Assembly: GCF_003555545.1 (NCBI RefSeq)
Contig: NZ_CP032157.1
Location: forward strand, 6,886,546 to 6,950,545
Length of the DNA: 64,000 bases
Source of the DNA: Paraflavitalea soli
GTDB taxonomy: Bacteria > Bacteroidota > Bacteroidia > Chitinophagales > Chitinophagaceae
Direction of reading: 5' to 3'
Part shown: positions 36,760-48,616 of the stretch, piece by piece
Layout of the letters: each line of letters begins with the position of its first letter
How positions within the stretch are numbered: the stretch's first letter is position 1
The notes under the pieces: model-generated
The model's input: only the letters and a program-made list of their open reading frames with translations
Database searches by the model: none
Told to the model about the DNA's origin: nothing
Made by a program: the position numbers and the translations under genes

Positions 36760-37458
36760 TCATCGTAGGAACAATACAATCAAAGCCGCAAACAGCGTAT
36801 TGAGCAAATTCACCACATCATTGTTAATGCGGTGCCTGCGTTCCAGTGAAGCCCCCAGCAAAGAGTCCAGCAGGTTGCCCAGCACACCGGCAAGTACAAT
36901 AAGGAGACTGTCTTTCCCAAACCCCTGGAACAGCGAATAGATAACCGCCATCACCGCTGCCCCACCCATACCCAGCAAGCTGCCTTCCAGGCTTACCACA
37001 CCATCCAATCCTTTCTGGTCTTTTTTGAATGTCAGTATATTATAATGATGACGGCCATACACCATCCCCAGTTCAGAAGAAAGCGTGTCCGCAATGGCCG
37101 AGGCAAGACTGGCGGCCATCATCAGCAGGTAAACCACGTCATGGACAGGATCAATCATGGCCAGCAGTCCCGCCAGGGCGGCGATACCGCCATTGGCCAG
37201 TACCTGTCCGGCGTGTCGTTTTTCCGGATGGGGCTCTTGGGAGAGGATGGTTGCTTTAATGGCTTTCCCGTGCGAAGTAGCCCAGATTCCCAGCACAAAA
37301 AAAGCACTCAGCATCAGCAGACCCGTATAGCCCCCTCCGCCAAAAACGAGAAATCCTGTTAACCCACCCGCCAAGGCAGCGGGGATAGACAGTTTACCTG
37401 TCTTTACACTCATCGCCATAACGACCAGCAGCAGTCCCGAAACAAGAATGTATTCCAC
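36760..37458 (-). CDS. DUF92 family membrane protein
   Basis: A 232-residue membrane protein of the DUF92/TMEM19 family with about six membrane helices. Plant and cyanobacterial members include phytyl-phosphate kinase (VTE6). Seen: KTGKLSIPAALAGGLTGFLV, GGGGYTGLLMLSAFFVLG, the conserved KRHAGQVLANGG, ASLASAIADTLSSELGMVYG and LAGVLGNLLDSLLGASLERR. It begins at a GTG (37458); the next Met is at residue 14, within the first helix, so the GTG is preferred. Enzymatic activity is only inferred from the family. Confidence 0.9.
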   Translation of the reverse strand: MEYILVSGLLLVVMAMSVKTGKLSIPAALAGGLTGFLVFGGGGYTGLLMLSAFFVLGIWATSHGKAIKATILSQEPHPEKRHAGQVLANGGIAALAGLLAMIDPVHDVVYLLMMAASLASAIADTLSSELGMVYGRHHYNILTFKKDQKGLDGVVSLEGSLLGMGGAAVMAVIYSLFQGFGKDSLLIVLAGVLGNLLDSLLGASLERRHRINNDVVNLLNTLFAALIVLFLR

Positions 37459-37792: not shown

Positions 37793-38764
37793 ATGAAGCG
37801 AAGACCAGGAGATTTTTTGGGTGCAATGAAAAATTGGTTGATCCCGGAAAGTACGAAGGATTCACCTGCTGCACCCATTACCAACAATGATATCCTGAAA
37901 GAATTATTGGATTGCTTCGATGATTCCTGTAAAACCGAATCCGTAGGAGCGAGCCTGGTGTTCAACATGCATTTCCTTGTCATCCTGCATCCCGATGTCT
38001 ATGAACAACGGTTGCCTTCTTTTCCCGTGGTCGTGAAAGAGGCCGTGAAAATGTTTTACAAGAAACTTGAAGTGTACAGGAAAGACTATGAAGACCTGTC
38101 TCCCGTTTCCTCCCATTGGCAGTTCAGGTTTGGTCCGGCATCCGATTTCAACAGCGAGCGCATCAGCCCCTACGATATAAAGATCATTGGCATGCTCACC
38201 GGCATAAAGACTGGTAGTATGAGTGGCGAAAGAAGGCATACCGCCAAAGTGACCATGAAATCCAAAGCCACCAATGTATTCGATAAGATGGACATTAACC
38301 TGGAGGTGCTCCGCCATATCCATTTTGCCGAAAGCGGCAACTTTACCGTCAAGTTTAGCAGCGATCTTTCCCTCGGTGGCGGATCATTGCTGCGGCAGGC
38401 CCGCAATATGGACAGTGGCCTGGCCAGGATCGAATATTTTATGGGCGATAAGAACAAGTCCGACACCTACCTCATGAAGGATACTGAAATTGTTATTGCC
38501 CGGAAGGAACCCGAAAACCAGGGCTATAGCAATTACCTGCTCATCGAATCCAGTTATGTATCCAATCCCCATGCCCGCATCCGGTTGAATGAAGCAACCG
38601 GAAAATTTCAGATTGCCAGTTTCAGTTCCAATGAGACCAGGGTCAATGAAGTGGTGATTGCCAGGAGTGAAGCCCATAGCCCCCGTTGGTTTGACCTTGA
38701 ACCCCAAAGCCAGGTGTTACTGAACGGCATCATAACCCTTGAATTTAAACAGCAACAACAATGA
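37793..38764 (+). CDS. FHA domain protein, first of the cell-wall kinase operon
   Basis: A 323-residue cytoplasmic protein. The C-terminal 95 residues (about 228-320) look like a forkhead-associated domain, which binds phosphothreonine peptides: TEIVIARKEPE, then SSYVSNPHARIRLNEATGKF with the conserved Asn and His region, SNETRVNEVVI and PQSQVLLNGIITLEF. The usual Ser-Arg before the His is replaced by Ser-Asn-Pro-His-Ala-Arg, so peptide binding is not certain. The N-terminal 200 residues are a mixed alpha/beta domain (NNDILKELLDCFDDS, HFLVILHPDVYEQRL), which in layout recalls the N-terminal domain of mycobacterial FhaA, though I cannot prove homology. Its stop overlaps the start of the 28-residue peptide gene (ATGA). 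It heads the operon. Confidence 0.85.
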   Translation: MKRRPGDFLGAMKNWLIPESTKDSPAAPITNNDILKELLDCFDDSCKTESVGASLVFNMHFLVILHPDVYEQRLPSFPVVVKEAVKMFYKKLEVYRKDYEDLSPVSSHWQFRFGPASDFNSERISPYDIKIIGMLTGIKTGSMSGERRHTAKVTMKSKATNVFDKMDINLEVLRHIHFAESGNFTVKFSSDLSLGGGSLLRQARNMDSGLARIEYFMGDKNKSDTYLMKDTEIVIARKEPENQGYSNYLLIESSYVSNPHARIRLNEATGKFQIASFSSNETRVNEVVIARSEAHSPRWFDLEPQSQVLLNGIITLEFKQQQQ

Positions 38765-38847
38765 CCGTATCTGTGATCGGCACATGTGCCCTCTGTTTGT
38801 TTGTGGTGTTCTTATTAATACGACATTTTAAAAACCTGCCCCGATAA
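38761..38847 (+). CDS. 28-residue single-span membrane peptide
   Basis: MTVSVIGTCALCLFVVFLLI followed by RHFKNLPR. The peptide has one hydrophobic segment (about residues 4-20) and a basic C-terminal end, which predicts an inner-membrane peptide with its C terminus in the cytoplasm. The ATG overlaps the stop of the FHA gene (ATGA) and the stop lies 1 bp before the phosphatase ATG, so it fills the gap exactly and would be translationally coupled on both sides. This packing argues that it is a real gene. It is too short for usual gene finders. Function unknown; a small partner of the kinase, phosphatase or SEDS protein is a guess. Confidence 0.6.
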   Translation: MTVSVIGTCALCLFVVFLLIRHFKNLPR

Positions 38848-38848
38848 A

Positions 38849-40291
38849 ATGAAAAGCATGTTCATCAGCGGAAATACGGATCCGGGTAGGCGTCGGAAAG
38901 AAAACCAGGACGCCTGGATTGCGCAGCAGCTATGGTCGCCCGACAATGCTTTGCTGGCTGTGATCGATGGAGTAGGGGGATATACCGGCGGTGAAAAGGC
39001 CGCAGCTATTGCCCGTGAAAGTATTATACAATACATGCAATTGCCCAAGGGCGATACCCTCACTATGCTGCGGGAAGCCGTCATCTTTGCCAATAACCGC
39101 ATTGTAGAAGAAAGAAAAAAAGACCAGCACATCAGCGAAATGTGTTGTGTGCTCACCGCAGTAGTGGCCGATGCAGCCACCCAATCTCTTTATTTTGCCC
39201 ATGTAGGCGATACAAGACTTTATCGCTACAGAGAGGGCAAGCTGCAGAAGCTGACCAAGGACCATTCTTTTGTAGGCATCCGGGAAGACGCAGGAGAAAT
39301 GACCGAGCTGGAAGCCATGAACCACCCCCATCGCAACCAGATACTCCGGGAAGTAGGGTCTACCCCGCACCGGCTGGATGATGAAGATTTTATGGATTAT
39401 GGCCGCGATGAGTTGCTGCCGGGCGATAGTTTACTATTGTGCAGTGATGGTTTGACTGATATGATCACTGTACAACAGGTGACCACCGTACTATCTACCG
39501 GACAACCCTTGCCCAATAAGGTGAGCAGTCTCATTGCCCTGGCCAACGAAATGGGGGGCAACGACAACATCACCGTAGTATTGCTAAAGCGTAAACCTGT
39601 CACCGCCAAAAAGCAGGTGCCCGTGGTAAATCCAATTGCCGAAGTAAAAGATGCACAACCAGCTACACCAGTCGAAGCAAAAGATTGCCGACTGTCGACT
39701 GCCGATTGCCGACTGCCGACTGCCGATTGCCGACCATCAACTGCCGATCCACGACCGAAAACGCACAATACGCCGCCCCGTTTATTGTGGGCCGCCCTCA
39801 TCCTCCTGCTCGTAGCAGGAGCAGGCTGGTATTTTACACCGCCCAAAAGAATGGAGATACCACCGCCTGAAGTTATTGTTGTTGATAGTAATAAAGCGAC
39901 TACGGCCGTGCGCGTGAATCATCCCGCCGTCCCCGGCCCGGTGGTCGAAGAACAAACAGATACGCTGCGGATAGCCGCTACTAAAAGCTGGAAATACATT
40001 CAACAATATGTAGACAGCATTGGCAAAACGCTGGTGATCCTGCCCGCTAAAAACAACCAGACAAAGTTTGCCGCCATTGAGATCAATGACAGGTCTGCCA
40101 ATCCCGGTGATACCATCCTCATTAAAAATATACGCGTTAAGAACTTCGAGACCGGCATCAAAGTACAGGTGCCCATTCTCCTCAAAACAGATAACCTCGT
40201 CTTTGAAAATATCAAATATCCATTCAATAATCTTGTGAAATCCGATAGCAGCCATCCCTCCCTTTTGATCATGAACAACGTCAAGCGATAA
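38849..40291 (+). CDS. PP2C-type protein phosphatase with membrane span and periplasmic tail
   Basis: A 480-residue protein Ser/Thr phosphatase of the PPM/PP2C family (PstP/Stp-like). The catalytic domain covers residues about 1-250 and keeps the metal-binding motifs: RRRKENQDAW, AVIDGVGGYTGGEKA, HVGDTRLYRYREG, LLLCSDGLTDMI and GGNDNITVVLL. Residues 279-304 form a repetitive linker (DCRLSTA DCRLPTA DCRPSTA) that is encoded by a DNA heptamer array. Then comes one membrane span (LLWAALILLLVAGAGWYF, about 312-330) and a 150-residue periplasmic domain with beta-rich text (DTILIKNIRVKNFETGIKVQ). The tail domain is unknown to me. It is expected to reverse the kinase encoded next (3 bp between genes). 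Confidence 0.93.
   Translation: MKSMFISGNTDPGRRRKENQDAWIAQQLWSPDNALLAVIDGVGGYTGGEKAAAIARESIIQYMQLPKGDTLTMLREAVIFANNRIVEERKKDQHISEMCCVLTAVVADAATQSLYFAHVGDTRLYRYREGKLQKLTKDHSFVGIREDAGEMTELEAMNHPHRNQILREVGSTPHRLDDEDFMDYGRDELLPGDSLLLCSDGLTDMITVQQVTTVLSTGQPLPNKVSSLIALANEMGGNDNITVVLLKRKPVTAKKQVPVVNPIAEVKDAQPATPVEAKDCRLSTADCRLPTADCRPSTADPRPKTHNTPPRLLWAALILLLVAGAGWYFTPPKRMEIPPPEVIVVDSNKATTAVRVNHPAVPGPVVEEQTDTLRIAATKSWKYIQQYVDSIGKTLVILPAKNNQTKFAAIEINDRSANPGDTILIKNIRVKNFETGIKVQVPILLKTDNLVFENIKYPFNNLVKSDSSHPSLLIMNNVKR
39683..39759. repeat. Heptamer array (GAYTGCC type) inside the PP2C gene
   Basis: Eleven 7-nt units in register: GATTGCC, GACTGTC, GACTGCC, GATTGCC, GACTGCC, GACTGCC, GATTGCC, GACCATC, AACTGCC, GATCCAC, GACCGAA. 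Because three units make seven codons, the array gives a repeating seven-residue linker. Confidence 0.85.
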
Positions 40292-40294
40292 ACC

Positions 40295-42049
40295 ATGGCC
40301 ACTTCGATATTTAGAGAGTATTTTAAGGGGTATGAGATCCTCGGCGAACTGGGACGGGGTAATGCACGGGTATTAAAAGCCAGAAGTCTGCAAACAGGTG
40401 AGTTGGTTGCCATCAAGCACTTTGCTTTTAATACAGAACCCGATACCCTCCGGCGCTTCCAGCGCGAGTCGGAGATCATGAAGTCCATCCAGCATGAGTA
40501 TATTGTTAAGATCATAGAAGTGCACCTCGATGCAGAGCTGCCCTATATCGTAATGCAATTGGTAGAGGGAGGCGATCTGCGCAGCTTGTTGAGAATGCAC
40601 CATACCCTGGACATCGCTACCGTTATCCGCCTGGCACACCATATGACCGAAGCCCTGGATGCCATTCATGCCAAAGCAGTGGTGCACCGCGATGTGAAAC
40701 CCGAGAATATCATGTACCGGAGACTCCCTACCGGGGAGATCCATTTCTTACTCACCGATTTTGGCATTGCCAAATTGCGCGAGCAGTCCGACACCATTAC
40801 CGTTACCGGAGCTTCCATGCTCACCTATGATTACGCCTCACCTGAGCAATTCAACCAATCAAAAAATGTATCCACCCCTACCGATTATTATTCTTTGGGT
40901 GTGGTGATCTATGAATGCCTCACCGGCCTTGTTCCATTTGAATATGAACAGGACGATCTCCTAATGCACATCAACCGTGTGATCGCCTCGCCCATCCCCG
41001 TGCCCCGGCTGCCGGCTCATCGTTCCCTGCCACCCAGCCTGATGTTATTGATGGAAGGTCTGCTCACCAAACAAGGTTCCCACCGGTTGGCCGATCCTGT
41101 CCAGGTACGACACCTCTTAAAAATGGCCGCTATCGAAGACCTGCGGGGCATCAGAACCTTGCCGCCGGCTGAACAAAGTGAAACCGTCAAATACGTGGCG
41201 CCTCCACCGCCCCCGCCCACCAAAAAACGTGAGATCACTTTTATTGCTGTTGTGTTGTTGCTGATCAGTGTGGCCATCTTCTTTTCCTGGACCACCCTTG
41301 TTAAGTCAAATGCCATTGCTGCTGAGACCACGCCGCCTGATATTAAACCATCCCATGTGCAGGAGGTCAAATACAATATCCCCTCGGGAAAAAGAAAATA
41401 CCTGGCGGCGCCCATACAGGCTCCTGCCATCCCTATAGAACCTGTTCAGGAAGATATTCCCGAACGAACACCCGAAACCAACCCGGGCATAACCTTGAAC
41501 AATGGCGTGTATTACAATGATTTTAGTGATCCGCAGGATACCATTTGGGATATTGGGAAAGATGAGACCAGTGAGTTCAACCTGGCAGATGGGAAATACA
41601 TTATGAAAGGATTGGCCGATAGCCTGAGTTATTCTACGGCCGCTAAATTCAACCTGGATATCCATAAAGACTTCACCATCATGGCCAATGCTACCCATTG
41701 GGGAGATAGCGCCGGCGATCCTTTTGGCCTTAACTTCTGTGGCGATCAGCAACAGGATTCCTACTTCGTTTTTTATATTACTTCCAACGGGTATTATTCT
41801 GTGGGGGCTTTAATAAAAGATGAATGGAAGGTGTTCGTGGATTGGACACCCTCAGCCAATATCCGCCCGGATGCCGGCATGAACATGCTCACCGTTGAAA
41901 AGCATGGCACCGTACTCCGTTTCCTGATCAACGACCGGTTGGAAAAGACCTTATCCTTTACCGGTGGCTTTGGCAATTATTTTGGCCTTCGGGTGGATGG
42001 CGCCCAAACAGTATCGTTTGACCAGCTTATTGTAAAGGGATCACAATAA
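40295..42049 (+). CDS. Membrane Ser/Thr protein kinase (PknB-like) with extracytoplasmic domain
   Basis: A 584-residue Hanks-type kinase. Seen: glycine loop GELGRGNARV, the ATP-binding Lys41 in LVAIKHF, the catalytic loop HRDVKPEN with Asp133, the metal-binding DFG with Asp155 (LLTDFGIAKL), an activation loop with several Thr (DTITVTGAS), and SPEQ in place of APE. A Pro-rich juxtamembrane stretch and one membrane span (about 308-330, ITFIAVVLLLISVAIFFSW) lead to an outer domain of about 180 residues that resembles a concanavalin A/LamG-type sandwich (NNGVYYNDFSDPQDTIWDIG, then QLIVKGSQ). There are no PASTA repeats, unlike PknB/PrkC. The kinase probably phosphorylates the FHA proteins or the wall-synthesis protein encoded next to it. 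Confidence 0.94.
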   Translation: MATSIFREYFKGYEILGELGRGNARVLKARSLQTGELVAIKHFAFNTEPDTLRRFQRESEIMKSIQHEYIVKIIEVHLDAELPYIVMQLVEGGDLRSLLRMHHTLDIATVIRLAHHMTEALDAIHAKAVVHRDVKPENIMYRRLPTGEIHFLLTDFGIAKLREQSDTITVTGASMLTYDYASPEQFNQSKNVSTPTDYYSLGVVIYECLTGLVPFEYEQDDLLMHINRVIASPIPVPRLPAHRSLPPSLMLLMEGLLTKQGSHRLADPVQVRHLLKMAAIEDLRGIRTLPPAEQSETVKYVAPPPPPPTKKREITFIAVVLLLISVAIFFSWTTLVKSNAIAAETTPPDIKPSHVQEVKYNIPSGKRKYLAAPIQAPAIPIEPVQEDIPERTPETNPGITLNNGVYYNDFSDPQDTIWDIGKDETSEFNLADGKYIMKGLADSLSYSTAAKFNLDIHKDFTIMANATHWGDSAGDPFGLNFCGDQQQDSYFVFYITSNGYYSVGALIKDEWKVFVDWTPSANIRPDAGMNMLTVEKHGTVLRFLINDRLEKTLSFTGGFGNYFGLRVDGAQTVSFDQLIVKGSQ

Positions 42050-42069
42050 AAAATAATCAGCAATAATAC

Positions 42070-45000
42070 ATGGCTGTTAAGGCAGGCAATACCAATCATT
42101 ATGTAAAAAGAGAAGGCTGGCTCCTCCTCACAGGTGCGGCATTAATACTCCTCTTCCTGTTCTTCAACCTCTTTCAGGCACTCTCGCCACAACTGGCAAA
42201 AACAAATACCGCACTGCTGGAAGGCAGGGCTTTAAAGCTGGAAAGCGTTGTGAACAAGGACGTGCTAAGAAAGGTGATTACAGATGGTTCCTATTATACC
42301 GATCAGCGCGATGTTGACCTGCTGGTGGATTCCCTCGCCGGTAAGTTACTCGCCCTTGGCCAGCCCGACAACCTGGGTGCGCTCAACAAAGGCGCTTATG
42401 CCATTACCGCTCCCGTGCCATGGAAAACAACCATTGGAGGAATTGATTTTCAGGATCGCCTGCGGGCATCCCGCCAAAGACTTGGGTTCGATTCTGCTTT
42501 ATACGTACAGGAGTTAACCAGCCCCGTCAACAGTGAATTGTTAAGTGGAGCGTCCTCTTCGGGAGGTCGGGTCATGATTGCAACTGGTGATCAGGAAATG
42601 ACGGGGCGGGTCCTGTACCAGGATAAACCCATGCCAGGTGTGCTGGTACAATTAAGACAGCACATACCTTCCCTCGAAGAAGATTCACTCACCGGGATCA
42701 TTGGTTACGCACGCACCAATGCCAAAGGCGAGTTTGCCTTTGCTGGTTTGTTTCGTGATTCCGGGTACAGTGTACTGCCCTTGAAACCCGGCTACGAATT
42801 TGGCAGCAGAAAAGGTACCAGTGCACTGAGGAATAACCCTGCTTTCACCTTTGTGGCAAAGCCACATAAAATAAGACTCATAGGTTCCATCGTATACGGA
42901 CAATTAAAAGAAGATGGCGCTTTAATAGTCCGGACACCCGAAGAATTCAAGACCAGCTTTCAGATCATAGCCGGTGGCCTTATCCTCGCTTTCTTTATTG
43001 TACACCTCATCCTGTCCGTCAGAAAACGGCAGCCCGATATTTTCCTGTTGCCCGTACTCTTGCTTTTGTGTGGCATATCCGTATTAACCCTCTTTAGTAT
43101 CCAGCATCCCCTTACCGATTCACTCCATGCTTTTCAAACCCTGCAGGGCATTGTAGCGGGGCTTGTTGCCTATACTGTCTTCAGTAGTGTGAATGTAGGC
43201 GCCTGGTATACCCGCTGGTGGTTTGATGGCTTGTTCAACTTCAGGAATAAGCATATCTACCAGCTCAAAGGATGGACCTGGTTGGCCCTGGCCGTAGCGC
43301 TGGCCATCACCACCGTATTGATTGGAACGGGGCCTGAGGGCAGTGGTGTAAAAGTAAACCTCCAGCTGGGTGGATTTACCTTCCAGCCCAGTGAGATCAC
43401 CAAGTACCTCCTGTTATTTTTCCTCGCGGCATTCTTCGCTGCCAATGAAGAGAATATACGCAACCTGTCAGATATACGCTGGCGCTTTTACATCAACTGG
43501 GGCGTGTTTGCCGGCATTGGTCTTATCCTCGCCCTCTATCTTTTTATGGGCGATATGGGACCTGCCCTGGTAGTGTGTTTCACTTTCTTATTCTTTTACA
43601 GCATCGCCCGTGGCAACCTCCTCTTTACTGTAATGGCAGGGCTGATATATGGCGGATTGTTATTGGTGCTGCCCGGATGGATGGCTACCGCAGCGGCACT
43701 GCTCCTGGTAGTGATCGGCTTATTGGTACAAGGTAACCTCCGCAGCACCAAATGGTATGGCGCTTTTGCTGCCATCGCCGATGCACCTGTCATCATCATC
43801 ATGGTCATAGCCGCTTTTGCCTTTGGCGATAAGGTGCCCGGCATAGGAGAGCGGCTGGCCGATCGCAAAGCCATGTGGCTAAGCCAATGGGACAATGATG
43901 TATTTGGCGGTGATCACCTCGCCCATTCCTATTGGACACTTTCTTCCGGTGGATTTTCAGGCCAGGGCATAGGTCGCGGTTTCCCCAACACCATGCCTGC
44001 TGCCCATACCGACATGATCCTGCCCAGTATCGGTGAAGAATTGGGTTGGTTGGGCCTCGTGGCTGTATTGCTGCTGTTTGGCATACTCATTCACCGCAGT
44101 TTCCTCCATGCACGCAGATCAGGTCAGCCATTCACCTTTTACCTCTGTGCCGGTATTGCCATTACTATCGGCATCCAGCTCCTCATCATTGCTGGTGGCT
44201 CCATTGGATTACTGCCCCTTACCGGTGTAGCCGTTCCATTTCTCAGTTATGGCAAAATATCACTCATCATCAACCTGGCCGCCATGGGCATTGTGGCTGG
44301 TATCTCCGCCAGGGAAGGACAGGAAGTGCAGCGCGAGCGCATGCAAAAGAACTATGATCCCGTATTGGCAACCGGTATCGCCTTTTTCCTGATCGGCATC
44401 ATTGCCCTGTCCGCTAAATTATTATTTGTGCAGGTCATCGACCGTGATAAATACATCGTAAAGCAGGCACGTGTGGTCATGCGCAACGGCGTGCCCGTAT
44501 ACAGCTACAATCCACGTATAGATAAGCTCATGCGCCTGCTTGCTGCCGGCAATGTATATGATCGCAAGGGCCTCGTACTTGCCACCAGTGAACCAGGTAC
44601 TATTCAGCAAAACATGGATACACTGCAGCGTGCCGGCCTTAGCAGCGCCTGGCTGCACCAGCTGATGCAAAAAAGAGTGCGGCGCTTTTATCCCTTTGCA
44701 GAAGGTCTTTTCTTTTGGACAGGCGATTACAATACCCGTTTGTTTTGGGGGCAGGCCAATGGCTATTTTGCAGAAGCACGGCACCTTACCGCGCTGAGAG
44801 GATTTGGCGTAACCCGTGAAATACAGGATTCCGTATATACCCTCTATCAGCCTGACCGCTTCACCAGGCCCTTCTATAAAACAGTGCCTATGGCCCGGTA
44901 CGATTATACAGCACTGGTGGATGGGCTAAAGAGTGGTATCGATACCAACGAAGCTGCCATCAGGAAGATAAGAGACAAGGATAGGAACATACAGCTCACA

Positions 45001-46119
45001 GTAGATGCTGCCCTGCAGGTAGAACTGCAGGACTCCCTGCGCAACAGCCTCTTTCAGCAAAAACGGATATCCGTAGTGGTATTGGATGCAGCCACCGGCG
45101 ATGTACTGGCATCTGCATTGAATCCATTGCCCAACCTCCAGTCGCCCGAACTCATGCAATTGTCCGACAGGGAAAGGAATCAGCTGGAAACACCTGTCAC
45201 AGAGAGAGACCTTGGTATGACCTACTCTACAGCCCCTGGCTCCACCGCTAAAATACTCACCGCCATGGCTGGGTTTAATAAAATGGGTATGGCAGCTACC
45301 GAAGTGAGGTACAACGATATCTATCGCCCTGAAATATTCCGCGACAATAAAAGAGAGCAGGAGCCATTTATTCCCAAAGTTCCTTTTGTAGACATGCACG
45401 AAGCCATTGTCAATTCCAGCAATATCTTCTTCATTCGCCTGGCCAACGAAAACCACCTGGAAGAAGAAATGGCCGCCTTGTATGAAGCAACAGGCATGAG
45501 CCTGGAACAGCGTGGTGGCTATAACTATACCGGATCAAATGATGTGCAGAAACAATCAGCCGATTTGGCCGCCTGGAGAAAGGAGGTGCTCAACCACGAC
45601 CGCAAGCAATACAATAACCCCAACTATGTAGGTACTACCAAACGTTACCGCAGCTTGTTTTCCGGCATTGCCTGGGGCCAAAGCGTACTGACCGCTACTC
45701 CGGCATCCATGGCCAGGATGGCAGGTGGCATCGCCAATCATGGTTTGTTGCAACCCTCCCGGTATTCTTTACAGGAAGCCGGAAAACCAACACCCTTGCC
45801 CGAAGGAATTAAGATCGCTAAGGATACTGCCTATGCTTCTTTGCTGAAGCAATTCATGATCGACCAGTCCAGTACACCCGGTAAGCTAAAGATCAAGGAT
45901 ACCAGGGTAGCAGGTAAATCAGGTACACCCGAGCGTATTATCAAAGGAGAAAAGCAGTCCGATGGGTGGTATGTATTCTTTGCACCCACGCCCGATAATA
46001 CTTCGTATACCGTCACCTGTATTCGTATTGAAAGTGGGCAGAGTTCTGCCAATGCTGTACTCCTGGCCAATACCGTGGCGAAGATCTTACAGCGAAGGGC
46101 TTACATGGGTTCATTTTAG
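42070..46119 (+). CDS. SEDS glycosyltransferase fused to class B penicillin-binding transpeptidase
   Basis: A 1349-residue membrane protein that unites both reactions of peptidoglycan synthesis. Order: one span (about 15-35); an extracytoplasmic domain (about 36-295) with a carboxypeptidase-regulatory-like fold (MTGRVLYQDKPMPGVLVQL, from 177); a RodA/FtsW (SEDS) domain with about ten spans (297-760), seen in GDMGPALVVCF (Asp495), WDNDVFGGDH, AAHTDMILPSIGEELGWLG (His646) and VAVPFLSYGKISLIINL; then a class B PBP transpeptidase (about 830-1349) with all three motifs, S1058-TA-K1061, S1116-S-N1118 and K1283-S-G-T1286. SEDS enzymes polymerise lipid II; the PBP crosslinks the strands. Normally they are separate partner proteins, RodA-PBP2 or FtsW-FtsI. 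The gap to the kinase gene is 20 bp, so control by phosphorylation is a likely inference. Confidence 0.95.
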   Translation: MAVKAGNTNHYVKREGWLLLTGAALILLFLFFNLFQALSPQLAKTNTALLEGRALKLESVVNKDVLRKVITDGSYYTDQRDVDLLVDSLAGKLLALGQPDNLGALNKGAYAITAPVPWKTTIGGIDFQDRLRASRQRLGFDSALYVQELTSPVNSELLSGASSSGGRVMIATGDQEMTGRVLYQDKPMPGVLVQLRQHIPSLEEDSLTGIIGYARTNAKGEFAFAGLFRDSGYSVLPLKPGYEFGSRKGTSALRNNPAFTFVAKPHKIRLIGSIVYGQLKEDGALIVRTPEEFKTSFQIIAGGLILAFFIVHLILSVRKRQPDIFLLPVLLLLCGISVLTLFSIQHPLTDSLHAFQTLQGIVAGLVAYTVFSSVNVGAWYTRWWFDGLFNFRNKHIYQLKGWTWLALAVALAITTVLIGTGPEGSGVKVNLQLGGFTFQPSEITKYLLLFFLAAFFAANEENIRNLSDIRWRFYINWGVFAGIGLILALYLFMGDMGPALVVCFTFLFFYSIARGNLLFTVMAGLIYGGLLLVLPGWMATAAALLLVVIGLLVQGNLRSTKWYGAFAAIADAPVIIIMVIAAFAFGDKVPGIGERLADRKAMWLSQWDNDVFGGDHLAHSYWTLSSGGFSGQGIGRGFPNTMPAAHTDMILPSIGEELGWLGLVAVLLLFGILIHRSFLHARRSGQPFTFYLCAGIAITIGIQLLIIAGGSIGLLPLTGVAVPFLSYGKISLIINLAAMGIVAGISAREGQEVQRERMQKNYDPVLATGIAFFLIGIIALSAKLLFVQVIDRDKYIVKQARVVMRNGVPVYSYNPRIDKLMRLLAAGNVYDRKGLVLATSEPGTIQQNMDTLQRAGLSSAWLHQLMQKRVRRFYPFAEGLFFWTGDYNTRLFWGQANGYFAEARHLTALRGFGVTREIQDSVYTLYQPDRFTRPFYKTVPMARYDYTALVDGLKSGIDTNEAAIRKIRDKDRNIQLTVDAALQVELQDSLRNSLFQQKRISVVVLDAATGDVLASALNPLPNLQSPELMQLSDRERNQLETPVTERDLGMTYSTAPGSTAKILTAMAGFNKMGMAATEVRYNDIYRPEIFRDNKREQEPFIPKVPFVDMHEAIVNSSNIFFIRLANENHLEEEMAALYEATGMSLEQRGGYNYTGSNDVQKQSADLAAWRKEVLNHDRKQYNNPNYVGTTKRYRSLFSGIAWGQSVLTATPASMARMAGGIANHGLLQPSRYSLQEAGKPTPLPEGIKIAKDTAYASLLKQFMIDQSSTPGKLKIKDTRVAGKSGTPERIIKGEKQSDGWYVFFAPTPDNTSYTVTCIRIESGQSSANAVLLANTVAKILQRRAYMGSF

Positions 46120-46174
46120 AAACAATGTTGTGAAGGACTGGCACCGGCCAGTAAGCAAACAAAAAAATATACGG

Positions 46175-47053
46175 ATGAAAAACTTAATCAACAAACTGAA
46201 GAAAAGCTTTGGCCTCACAGAGGAATCCCCTGATACAGATCAGGCCGTATCATCGACAAAGGAAGAATCTCCCGACTCCTTTATCCCGGCCACTCCTGTG
46301 AAGCGGGATGCCATCATTAAGTTTATTATCCAGGCACTCAAACCATACGTAGACGAAAAAAGCATGTCCGTGGCGGGCCTGCGTTTTTATATTCTATGTA
46401 CCAGTCACGAGCAGGAAGAGGCAGCGGGCATTGCCTTGTATACCGATAAGCCAGGTATGTTTAAAACAGAGCACCTGGAAAGGAAATTGCTCAACCATTT
46501 TATACAATTGGAACAGGATTGGTTTTTTGAATACCAAATAGTAAAGGACCAATTGCCCGAGAATTGTATCCAGCAGGGCAGCTTTGGATTGAAAGTTACC
46601 CGGGCAGGTGAGCACATTGTAGAAAAATACGCAGCCGCTTGCCTGCAGGTACTCGTAGGCCAGGCCGAACAATTTGAATATGTACTCGATCCGCATACCC
46701 AGCTACGGTTCAACATTGGCAGAAGCAAATCCCCCCAGCTCTCGTCTGGCAAAATTCAATTGAACGATATCGTATTCCTGGCCGCCGGCGAACCTGGCTT
46801 CGATGAAATAGCTGGCCGGGCCAACCTGCATGTAAGCCGCAACCACGCCTACATAATCTATGATCCTAAAGTAGATAAATACCTCCTGTACCCCGATAAA
46901 GGAGGGCTGCCCGATAGTGGCAACAAGATCAAAGTGCATACCGCCGACGACAAAGTAAAATGGCTCAACATGTATGGCATTGCCCATCACTTGCAGGAAG
47001 GCGATCAGATTGAACTGGGCGGTGAAGCCATTTTGAGATTTAAGAAAGGGTAG
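46175..47053 (+). CDS. FHA domain protein, last of the cell-wall kinase operon
   Basis: A 292-residue cytoplasmic protein. The N-terminal part is a short helical, charged region (MKNLINKLKKSFGLTEES) and a domain of about 130 residues (KFIIQALKPYVDEKSMSVAG) with no known name. The C-terminal 115 residues are a canonical FHA domain: RFNIGRSKSP, LHVSRNHAYIIYDPK with the Ser-Arg-x-His core, and the late Asn strand (SGNKIKVHTADDKVKWLN), ending EGDQIELGGEAILRFKK. It should bind phosphothreonine. The ATG at 46175 is used; the frame runs on upstream but within the PBP coding region. It lies 55 bp after the SEDS-PBP gene. It is the better candidate of the two FHA proteins for a real phosphopeptide reader, like FhaB. 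Confidence 0.92.
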   Translation: MKNLINKLKKSFGLTEESPDTDQAVSSTKEESPDSFIPATPVKRDAIIKFIIQALKPYVDEKSMSVAGLRFYILCTSHEQEEAAGIALYTDKPGMFKTEHLERKLLNHFIQLEQDWFFEYQIVKDQLPENCIQQGSFGLKVTRAGEHIVEKYAAACLQVLVGQAEQFEYVLDPHTQLRFNIGRSKSPQLSSGKIQLNDIVFLAAGEPGFDEIAGRANLHVSRNHAYIIYDPKVDKYLLYPDKGGLPDSGNKIKVHTADDKVKWLNMYGIAHHLQEGDQIELGGEAILRFKKG

Positions 47054-47064
47054 TGATGTTTCGG

Positions 47065-47892
47065 TTATTTAACGACCCTGAATCCCTGGTTACTGAAGGA
47101 GGCGTGGATATTTGTCCTGCCGATATCGTAGGAATTAAAGAAATGACAACTATTGGGGCTGCACCACCAGGAACCTCCCCGCGCATGCGCCACTGTAGGG
47201 CTGGGATAAGCCTTTAGCTTGCCGCTGCAAAACTCAAATACATTTCCGTACATGTCATACAAACCCCAGGCATTGGGTGCAAAGCTGCCCGTTGGACTGG
47301 TAAAAAGATAGCCATCCGTACTGTCGGGCATCAGGTGATCTTTTCCATGCCAGGTATTCGCATACTTGCTCAGGAGTGCCGTATCATTACCAAAGGAGAA
47401 GTCTGTAGTGGTGCCTGCCCTGCAGGCAATTTCCCATTCGTCCAGCGACGGTAGCCGTACACCTGCCCACCGGCAATAGACCAAAATATCACTGTAGCTG
47501 ATACTGGTAACCGGATGAGCCATCTTATTTTCAATGCCTCCCCGGATCATACCGTTGGGGTATCGCCAGCTGGCAGTGCTATCATTGAACCATTCAAATT
47601 CCTGAAGCACCGGTTTATAGACCAGTGCATCATGCTTCCGTTCGGCATCTGTAACATAACCGGTGGCCTTGATGAAAGCGTCAAATTGCGCATTCGTTGT
47701 TTCCCGCGTAGCAATGCGGAAACTGTCTACCCTTACCCGGCGGAAAGGATTGAGCACATGCCCTTTCTTACCCACTGTATATTGCCCTTTGGGGATAGTG
47801 ACAAAATCCCCGCCATCCTGCGCCTGGCCAGCCATCGTATGGAGTAATACGACGATGATGCCTGTTAGTATAATGCTATTTTGGAAGCCCAT
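47065..47892 (-). CDS. Secreted SUMF1 (formylglycine-generating enzyme-like) protein
   Basis: A 275-residue protein of the FGE-sulfatase superfamily with a signal peptide (ILTGIIVVLLHTMAGQAQ). Seen: FVTIPKGQYTVGKKG, ATRETTNAQFDAFIKATGYV, HPVTSISYSDILVYCRWAG, RLPSLDEWEIACRAGTTTDF, NAWGLYDMYGNVFEFCSG and the ending RGGSWWCSPNSCHFF, which fit the C-type-lectin-like core. The two active-site Cys of true FGE (in the pattern around CVPCC-type text) are not clearly present, so it may be a non-enzymatic member. The start ATG at 47892 lies inside the upstream gene's last codons (17-bp overlap), which shows tight coupling. It is convergent with the FHA-kinase operon, 11 bp from its last stop. Confidence 0.88.
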   Translation of the reverse strand: MGFQNSIILTGIIVVLLHTMAGQAQDGGDFVTIPKGQYTVGKKGHVLNPFRRVRVDSFRIATRETTNAQFDAFIKATGYVTDAERKHDALVYKPVLQEFEWFNDSTASWRYPNGMIRGGIENKMAHPVTSISYSDILVYCRWAGVRLPSLDEWEIACRAGTTTDFSFGNDTALLSKYANTWHGKDHLMPDSTDGYLFTSPTGSFAPNAWGLYDMYGNVFEFCSGKLKAYPSPTVAHARGGSWWCSPNSCHFFNSYDIGRTNIHASFSNQGFRVVK

Positions 47893-48616
47893 TGTAGAAA
47901 TCCGTAGCACGTTTGATGATCAGTTCTTCGTTAGGAATATTGAAATTAAGAAAGGCATCATAACTATTGATCTCATCCCCGTATAATTTCTTGTTGGAAG
48001 TGGATACCATGAATTCCTTGTACTCATTGTTCTTCATCAGCAGCATCAGTACCGTGAGGATATCATGGTCCTTCTTATCTGTTTTATAAGTGCTGATCAG
48101 AAAGGGGATCATTTCCCGGGCGTTGATGTCAACGATGGCATGTTTTAAGTTCAACCCAAGCCTTTTTTCTTTGGCCACGCATTCCTTGATCCATTGCATG
48201 ACAGAATCTTTGTTCGATCGCAGGAACTGTACCTGCCGCTCCGACCAGTTGTTCTCTCCAAACATTTCAGGCAGCCGGCCGAATATTTTCTTGTGTTCAT
48301 CCTGTATGGGAGGCCTGGCGTCGCAATTCTGACTATACGATTCACCATGCATCATATGGTAGGTAAACTTCTCCCGTAGCGTAAGGCTAAGATAGTCGGA
48401 TTGCTTCAGTTTTTCATTGTCATCCTCATCTGGTGTTAATTTCTTCAATAACCCCAATATCTTGAGTTTCCCATAGCTGGGCTCCGACATGTAATTCCGG
48501 TAAGTATGATAGGCACGGCTTTCTTTGCTGGGTTCTTTCCAGGCTTCTCCTTCATCCTGTGCCTGTGAACAGATAGTTGTGGCACATAATAGAAGGAATA
48601 GATATAGGGGTTTCAT
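47876..48616 (-). CDS. Hypothetical secreted protein coupled to the SUMF1 gene
   Basis: A 246-residue protein with a signal peptide (MKPLYLFLLLCATTICSQAQ). The mature part is mostly helical (KLKILGLLKKLTPDEDDNEK, YLSLTLREKFTYHMMHGES, RQVQFLRSNKDSVMQWIKEC) and has a HEAT-like middle with DINAREMIPFLISTYKTDKK. No family is recognised. The ATGs at 48616 and 48622 are both possible; 48616 gives the better signal peptide. It overlaps the SUMF1 gene by 17 bp, so the two are co-translated. Confidence 0.78.
   Translation of the reverse strand: MKPLYLFLLLCATTICSQAQDEGEAWKEPSKESRAYHTYRNYMSEPSYGKLKILGLLKKLTPDEDDNEKLKQSDYLSLTLREKFTYHMMHGESYSQNCDARPPIQDEHKKIFGRLPEMFGENNWSERQVQFLRSNKDSVMQWIKECVAKEKRLGLNLKHAIVDINAREMIPFLISTYKTDKKDHDILTVLMLLMKNNEYKEFMVSTSNKKLYGDEINSYDAFLNFNIPNEELIIKRATDFYNGLPK

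Follow-up and report, generated by a model that had tools for sequence, protein, structure and literature searches.

A conserved but patchy Bacteroidota operon around a SEDS-PBP fusion, putatively a phosphorylation-run accessory peptidoglycan synthase

A six-gene operon of Paraflavitalea soli probably encodes an accessory peptidoglycan synthase that is run by protein phosphorylation, and would represent a Bacteroidota branch of the actinobacterial cassette fhaA-fhaB-pstP-rodA-pbpA-pknA-pknB. The operon occupies positions 37793–47053 of a 64,000-nucleotide stretch of contig NZ_CP032157.1 (6,886,546 to 6,950,545; hereafter the window). Its six open reading frames (ORFs) all lie on the forward strand, with intergenic gaps of −4, 1, 3, 20 and 55 bp, exactly as an initial annotation of this DNA had described. 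In order, they encode a protein with an FHA fold (FHA1), a small peptide with a single transmembrane (TM) segment, a PP2C phosphatase, a Ser/Thr kinase, a fusion of a SEDS glycosyltransferase with a penicillin-binding protein (PBP) transpeptidase, and a second FHA protein (FHA2) (Table 1). Wall synthases under phospho-control are known from both Actinobacteria and Firmicutes.

The operon belongs to a conserved cassette of patchy occurrence, made up of FHA1, the peptide, PP2C, an optional kinase, the SEDS-PBP fusion, FHA2 and a further optional kinase. Scanning named genomes for the pattern gave at least 595 matching stretches, at least 531 of them relatives; 80 named loci were kept, and 65 of these had full context (at least 6.5 kb on both sides). 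The order FHA1-PP2C-(kinase)-fusion-FHA2 was found on one strand in 60 of the 65 full-context loci. The initial annotation had proposed conservation of the gene set in relatives as a check on its reading, and the set is indeed conserved together. L152 and L173 keep the gene order, but have genes broken up into two or more ORFs, and L129, L141 and L143 are without some cassette parts. Kinase number and position vary between lineages. One or more kinases lie between PP2C and the fusion in 33 of the full-context loci; PP2C directly adjoins the fusion in 30 loci, where kinases occur before FHA1 (22), after FHA2 (23) or, in some, at both places. At least one same-strand kinase gene lies within 9 kb in 63 of the 65.

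Carriers include Niastella, Paraflavitalea, Longitalea, Flavihumibacter, Spirosoma, Larkinella, Fibrella, Pedobacter, Mucilaginibacter and Segetibacter. Within the window's family, 38 of 294 genomes (14 of 101 genera) had the transpeptidase part at E 1e-15, and the fusion profile matched 15 of 395 genomes across the Bacteroidota phylum at E 1e-50 and 7 of 244 genomes of another Bacteroidota class at E 1e-40. On these counts, the initial description as a Bacteroidota system is too wide. A complete operon also resides on a 136,743-bp plasmid of Spirosoma oryzicola (NZ_CP089545.1, 69767–80323).

The 1349-residue ORF matched both FTSW_RODA_SPOVE (1.5e-48) and Transpeptidase (6.8e-23) in Pfam, in agreement with the initial reading of rodA and pbpA as one gene. 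Residue D648 of the SEDS part and residues S1058, K1061, S1116, N1118, K1283 and G1285 of the transpeptidase, which we take to be the catalytic positions of the two domains, were invariant in all 15 rows of a fusion alignment. The extra N-terminal domain matched CarboxypepD_reg above the Pfam cut-off in two carriers from the other class (L098, 38.9 bits; L099, 44.8 bits) and below it in a third (L101, 19.4 bits) and in the window fusion (15.2 bits). By identity, the closest named relatives of the fusion among the matches listed were from Paraflavitalea and Niastella (79–82%). A single 1384-residue ORF of the other class (L100:7262-11416) combines PP2C, SEDS and transpeptidase as a triple fusion.

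The SEDS half of the fusion groups with proteins of actinobacterial fha loci. In an unrooted tree of 44 SEDS rows, in which some long branches and odd compositions were flagged, 20 fusions fell on one side of a branch together with four RodA proteins of actinobacterial fha loci and an FHA-linked SEDS protein of Monoglobus (support 100/98). These four come from a set of six actinobacterial loci taken from plasmid-collection records, of which an Arthrobacter fragment was dropped and Embleya gave no row. Descent of the fusion SEDS from Bacteroidota RodA or FtsW was rejected by P values of the approximately unbiased test (p-AU) of 0.00135 and 0.00251, respectively, while a grouping with actinobacterial RodA alone was compatible with the data (p-AU 0.434). 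The initial annotation had left a choice between inheritance from far back and independent assembly. For the SEDS half, these sequence comparisons support the former, whether by descent or by transfer.

Both FHA assignments come from predicted structures. Pfam FHA matched FHA1 at E 0.004, under the cut-off, and did not match FHA2; at E 0.001 it had no match anywhere in the genome. AlphaFold2 models had a mean predicted local distance difference test score (pLDDT) of 86.4 for FHA1 and 85.6 for FHA2, and in Foldseek both matched solved FHA domains with a probability of 1.00, with a best E of 4.8e-7 (template modelling score of the target, TMt, 0.84) and 1.8e-6, respectively. The Foldseek matches listed for FHA1 all were FHA domains or contained one. 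TMt was 0.69 for FHA1 against the FHA domain of Rv0020c, and 0.76 for FHA2 against that of FhaA. Together with the Pfam matches of PP2C, kinase, SEDS and transpeptidase, these models bear out the gene functions initially assigned. In FHA2, residues G182, R183, S221, R222, H224 and N250 were present in 39 of 39 rows, and in FHA1, R237 and S257 were both kept in 14 of 40 rows, window included; we presume that these are positions of the phosphothreonine pocket.

Evidence that FHA1 is related to FhaA comes from the other class. FhaA_N (PF12401) matched 5 of 390 Bacteroidota genomes, which are the five out-of-class fusion carriers of the phylum search, and was above cut-off in three of them; among 14 control genomes, Corynebacterium glutamicum alone matched. 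The domain sits within the operon FHA1 of L098 (27.4 bits against a cut-off of 25) and, with sub-threshold scores, of L099 and L100, and some of the five genomes have further FhaA_N proteins outside the operon. A full-length profile of the window's FHA1 family matched the out-of-class FHA1 at E 2.2e-15 over 256 columns, with a good share of the signal coming from the FHA domain. Taken on its own, the N-terminal part reached an hhalign probability of 75 against the out-of-class set, and of 15 with three rows, compared to 0.2 for the reversed control and at most 1.1 for control segments. In the comparison with FhaA_N, three of the six actinobacterial loci yielded a row, one of them with its start called too early. 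Because the alignment is partly driven by the FHA domain, the N-terminal part is weak and actinobacterial FhaA is unmatched, the chain from the window FHA1 to FhaA is indirect. Inheritance from far back is therefore supported less directly for FHA1, via the out-of-class FhaA_N, than for the SEDS half. A profile search of the PDB with Bacteroidia FHA1 gave one match only (E 0.56), a search of the plasmid collection for FhaA with one out-of-class FHA1 as the query gave none, and FhaA_N compared with FHA2 gave an hhalign probability of at most 0.3, although helices and strands are predicted in a similar order.

An out-of-class operon FHA2 (L099:10435-11805) starts with a Swt1-like HEPN domain (90.1 bits). 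A second row of FHA2-like, FHA1-like (with FhaA_N) and PP2C genes lies at L219:1854-5821, with no SEDS match within the 9.3 kb covered. At L220:3559-8373, L222:4122-8825 and L223:3626-8329, an ORF of 1130–1168 residues is followed a few bases on by an FhaA_N-FHA protein.

The kinase (Pkinase, 1.6e-46) and the phosphatase (PP2C_2, 3.1e-14) each have one hydrophobic segment of TM length as shown by hydropathy. Pfam found no PASTA match in either protein, as the initial annotation had it, and no family at E 1 in their ectodomains. The PknB_PASTA_kin model scored 187.5 bits against the kinase (cut-off 450), over model positions 9–292 of 563 only, and the Stp1/IreP model scored 190.5 bits against the PP2C, below its cut-off of 230. 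The operon kinase is the sole full-length kinase-domain match in its own genome, which makes a dedicated kinase-phosphatase pair plausible although another PP2C exists. The 19 rows of cassette PP2C proteins form a single clade (98/96), which divides into the A, B, C and R groups seen in the fusion tree; one row of this clade comes from L219. With the cassette profile, the tree has no row from Embleya, from the genome's other PP2C (L257), or from L258, L274 and L276, and two locus pairs overlap, so that its 12 'other' rows include duplicates.

The 28-residue peptide is among the most regular parts of the operon and is easily missed by annotation. The initial annotation counted its gene, but left it unnamed and gave it no role. 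Such an ORF is present in 71 of 73 FHA1-PP2C gaps (window and named loci) and absent in L127 and L180, in a scan somewhat wider than that of a first set, to which the controls belong. In the first set (109 loci with 97 gaps, some genomes twice), a small hydrophobic ORF occurred in 93 of 97 gaps, and two of the four misses were recovered once the scan ran past the called PP2C start. On the opposite strand of these gaps the count was 9 of 97, and in the gaps between the fusion and FHA2 it was 0 of 106. Between close pairs, which are non-independent, differences at codon positions 1/2/3 numbered 2007/670/2979 (35 sequences) and 2264/933/3327 (36 sequences), which is, on these counts, the pattern expected of coding DNA. 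In one group of peptides both residues of an HF motif are invariant; in the other, invariance is seen for the F and for a K four residues further along, with the H present in 89%. A similar one-helix ORF follows FHA1 in all three out-of-class loci inspected (L098, L099 and L100), and the Spirosoma plasmid copy also carries one, where the incomplete table of PLSDB gives no gene. In Nocardia, FhaB opens with a hydrophobic segment and continues with FHA-type sequence, and the peptide occupies the same place. By its position and shape, the peptide may be a shrunken FhaB.

A passage of PMC6554272 describes pstP, rodA, pbpA and a PASTA kinase as linked throughout Actinobacteria, and a pknB-fhaA cluster as conserved both there and in part of the Firmicutes. 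FhaA and FhaB appear as phosphothreonine readers in a conserved Mycobacteriales operon in a passage of PMC11898655, and SEDS enzymes and class B PBPs as separate partners in one of PMC8262863. Among the best matches in open-licence PubMed Central titles and abstract starts, there was no Bacteroidota counterpart and no natural SEDS-PBP fusion.

In Actinomyces oris, and also as ORFs in Nocardia, the order is fhaA, fhaB, PP2C, rodA, pbpA, kinase, kinase. The Bacteroidota cassette resembles this locus in having an FHA protein, a TM gene, PP2C, SEDS and a class B PBP in the same order (with intervening kinases allowed, fhaA-x-pstP-rodA-pbpA lies on one strand in 60 of the 65 full-context loci), in the shared SEDS group, and in the FhaA_N of out-of-class FHA1. 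The resemblance noted in the initial annotation is thus upheld. Its statement that the order differs is right where kinase and second FHA gene are concerned, but not for FHA1-x-PP2C-SEDS-transpeptidase, where the order is the actinobacterial one. In contrast to the actinobacterial locus, SEDS and PBP are fused and have an extra N-terminal domain, a bare TM peptide replaces the TM-FHA protein FhaB, the second FHA gene is placed after the synthase, the window kinase is without PASTA, and kinases are at other positions.

Three other systems share parts of this arrangement. The clostridial FHA-FtsW/RodA-PBP cluster of Monoglobus has an FHA gene directly before SEDS and PBP, and its SEDS belongs to the same group. 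However, its SEDS and PBP are separate genes, no kinase or PP2C is listed in the stretch shown, and its PBP groups with actinobacterial PbpA, while the fusion transpeptidase does not. Fusions on Rhodococcus plasmids (L226:7077-9902 and L227:6477-9317) likewise hold SEDS and transpeptidase in one protein, but have no FHA, PP2C or kinase listed alongside, and their SEDS lies outside the cassette group. A shared SEDS origin with them was rejected (p-AU 0.0236), and they are probably a separate fusion event. The RodA-PBP2 and FtsW-FtsI pairs of Bacteroidota consist of the same two enzyme domains, but as separate genes, and a grouping of their SEDS proteins with the fusion was rejected. An origin of the fusion transpeptidase from FtsI was likewise rejected (p-AU 0.00416), while one from PBP2 was compatible with the data.

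How might such a cassette work? Alongside the observed gene content, order, conservation, catalytic-type residues, SEDS kinship and out-of-class FhaA_N, we infer the following steps, substrates, signal and role of the peptide. The SEDS half of the fusion would polymerise lipid II and the transpeptidase half would crosslink the product, as one tethered machine, with the extra N-terminal domain outside the membrane. The TM kinase would sense something outside and phosphorylate threonines on those parts of the module that face the cytoplasm. FHA2 would bind these phosphothreonines, as FHA1 probably would in the window's lineage, and recruit or activate the synthase, and the TM PP2C would reset the phosphorylation. 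The peptide could be a structural or docking subunit in FhaB's place. As two more SEDS genes lie outside the operon in the genome (8.44 Mb, one contig), the operon SEDS is its third, and a phospho-switched one-chain synthase would add to the two other enzymes. Control of wall synthesis by the operon is plausible. A bolder version, which we put forward tentatively and consider rather less likely than the general proposal, is a third, one-chain Bacteroidota synthase, with a phospho-relay as its switch that consists of a dedicated kinase, a phosphatase and an FHA reader; it would have been inherited from the actinobacterial growth cassette, with FhaB shrunk to an obligate membrane subunit of about 28 residues.

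Several results weigh against the operon being a phosphorylation-run branch of the actinobacterial cassette. FHA1 R237 is lost in 26 of 40 relatives, where G237 is found, and S257 is lost in 23 of 40. The window FHA1 has no direct FhaA_N match in Pfam, and its N-terminal part did not match three actinobacterial FhaA proteins (hhalign probability 1). A tree of 48 transpeptidase rows does not group the fusions with actinobacterial PbpA; with a constraint that joins them the fit falls by 4.67 log units (p-AU 0.097), and a grouping with Bacteroidota PBP2 does equally well (p-AU 0.15). The PP2C tree neither places the cassette PP2C with PstP nor settles its sister, and the genome's other PP2C, outside the operon, is the stronger match. 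The kinase phylogeny, suggested in the initial annotation together with that of SEDS, gave separate clades by lineage (L256 gave no row), with long branches and few outgroups, and leaves kinship with PknA/PknB undecided. Of the two origins initially considered, inheritance is favoured for the SEDS half and, less directly, FHA1, whereas transpeptidase, phosphatase and kinase would fit either. No kinase was seen within the operon of the other-class carriers, and the cassette was undetected in most sampled genomes, which means that the phylum as a whole can do without it.

The placements of transpeptidase and PP2C, and the different numbers and places of kinases among lineages, would fit convergent assembly. 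In that case a SEDS-PBP fusion, either of Bacteroidota or widely transferred, would have gathered its kinase, phosphatase and FHA genes independently, and the cassette would share no ancestor with the locus of Actinobacteria. We regard this as distinctly improbable, given the SEDS kinship with its alternatives rejected, the occurrence of FhaA_N in exactly the five out-of-class carriers, and the shared FHA1-x-PP2C-SEDS-transpeptidase order. It is also unlikely, if somewhat less so, that the kinase and FHA proteins serve other targets, such as general stress signalling, and that the synthase is merely a neighbour. The operon without a visible kinase in the other class and the lost FHA1 pocket residues speak for such a division, but PP2C and fusion clades share the same grouping, nearly all full-context loci have a same-strand kinase nearby, and one genome has PP2C and synthase joined in a single ORF. 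Transfer from a Gram-positive donor, followed by plasmid spread within the phylum and a niche task, for example growth under wall-targeting antibiotics rather than core growth, is possible and concerns the route, so that it can be combined with the explanation we prefer. It would account for the patchy occurrence within the family and for the Spirosoma plasmid, and Spirosoma-type fusions are nearer to the window's group than are other fusions of the window's own family. However, the groups are deeply diverged and carriers occur in two classes, which points to long residence, and no donor was identified.

A phosphorylation-run branch of this cassette in diderm bacteria would let the logic of the actinobacterial system be tested there, in harmless strains from soil and water. 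With SEDS and PBP naturally joined in one chain, the fusion offers structural and enzymatic studies a ready-made complex, and the conserved peptide is a regular operon part that annotation easily overlooks.

Table 1. Features of the operon and domains of the fusion, in window coordinates.
Feature	Position	Strand	Description
FHA1	37793..38764	+	323 aa: N-terminal alpha/beta domain, C-terminal FHA fold
Membrane peptide	38761..38847	+	28 aa, one hydrophobic segment (single TM), basic C-terminus (...RHFKNLPR)
PP2C phosphatase	38849..40291	+	480 aa: cytoplasmic catalytic domain, TM 312-330, C-terminal extracytoplasmic part
Ser/Thr kinase	40295..42049	+	584 aa: kinase domain residues 13-266, TM 314-332, extracytoplasmic domain
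SEDS-PBP fusion	42070..46119	+	1349 aa: TM, N-terminal extracytoplasmic domain, SEDS glycosyltransferase, transpeptidase
Fusion, extra domain	42175..42945	+	Residues 36-292; CarboxypepD_reg-like in out-of-class relatives
Fusion, SEDS polymerase part	42946..44430	+	Residues 293-787; FTSW_RODA_SPOVE, hydropathy segments
Fusion, penicillin-binding transpeptidase domain	45070..46071	+	Residues 1001-1334; Pfam Transpeptidase
FHA2	46175..47053	+	292 aa: FHA fold, phosphothreonine-pocket-type residues retained

The genes flanking the operon are both on the opposite strand, a DUF92 gene at 36760–37458 and a gene of FGE-sulfatase type at 47065–47910. Three neighbours scanned with Pfam, and the features beside the Spirosoma plasmid copy, were not like genes of a type VI secretion system, next to which the kinase, phosphatase and FHA genes of a PpkA-PppA-Fha pathway would be expected and for which no dedicated search was made. 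Elsewhere in the genome, outside the window, a RodA gene (locus L230:2394-7815) has a transpeptidase gene of the PBP2 group on each side, on the same strand.

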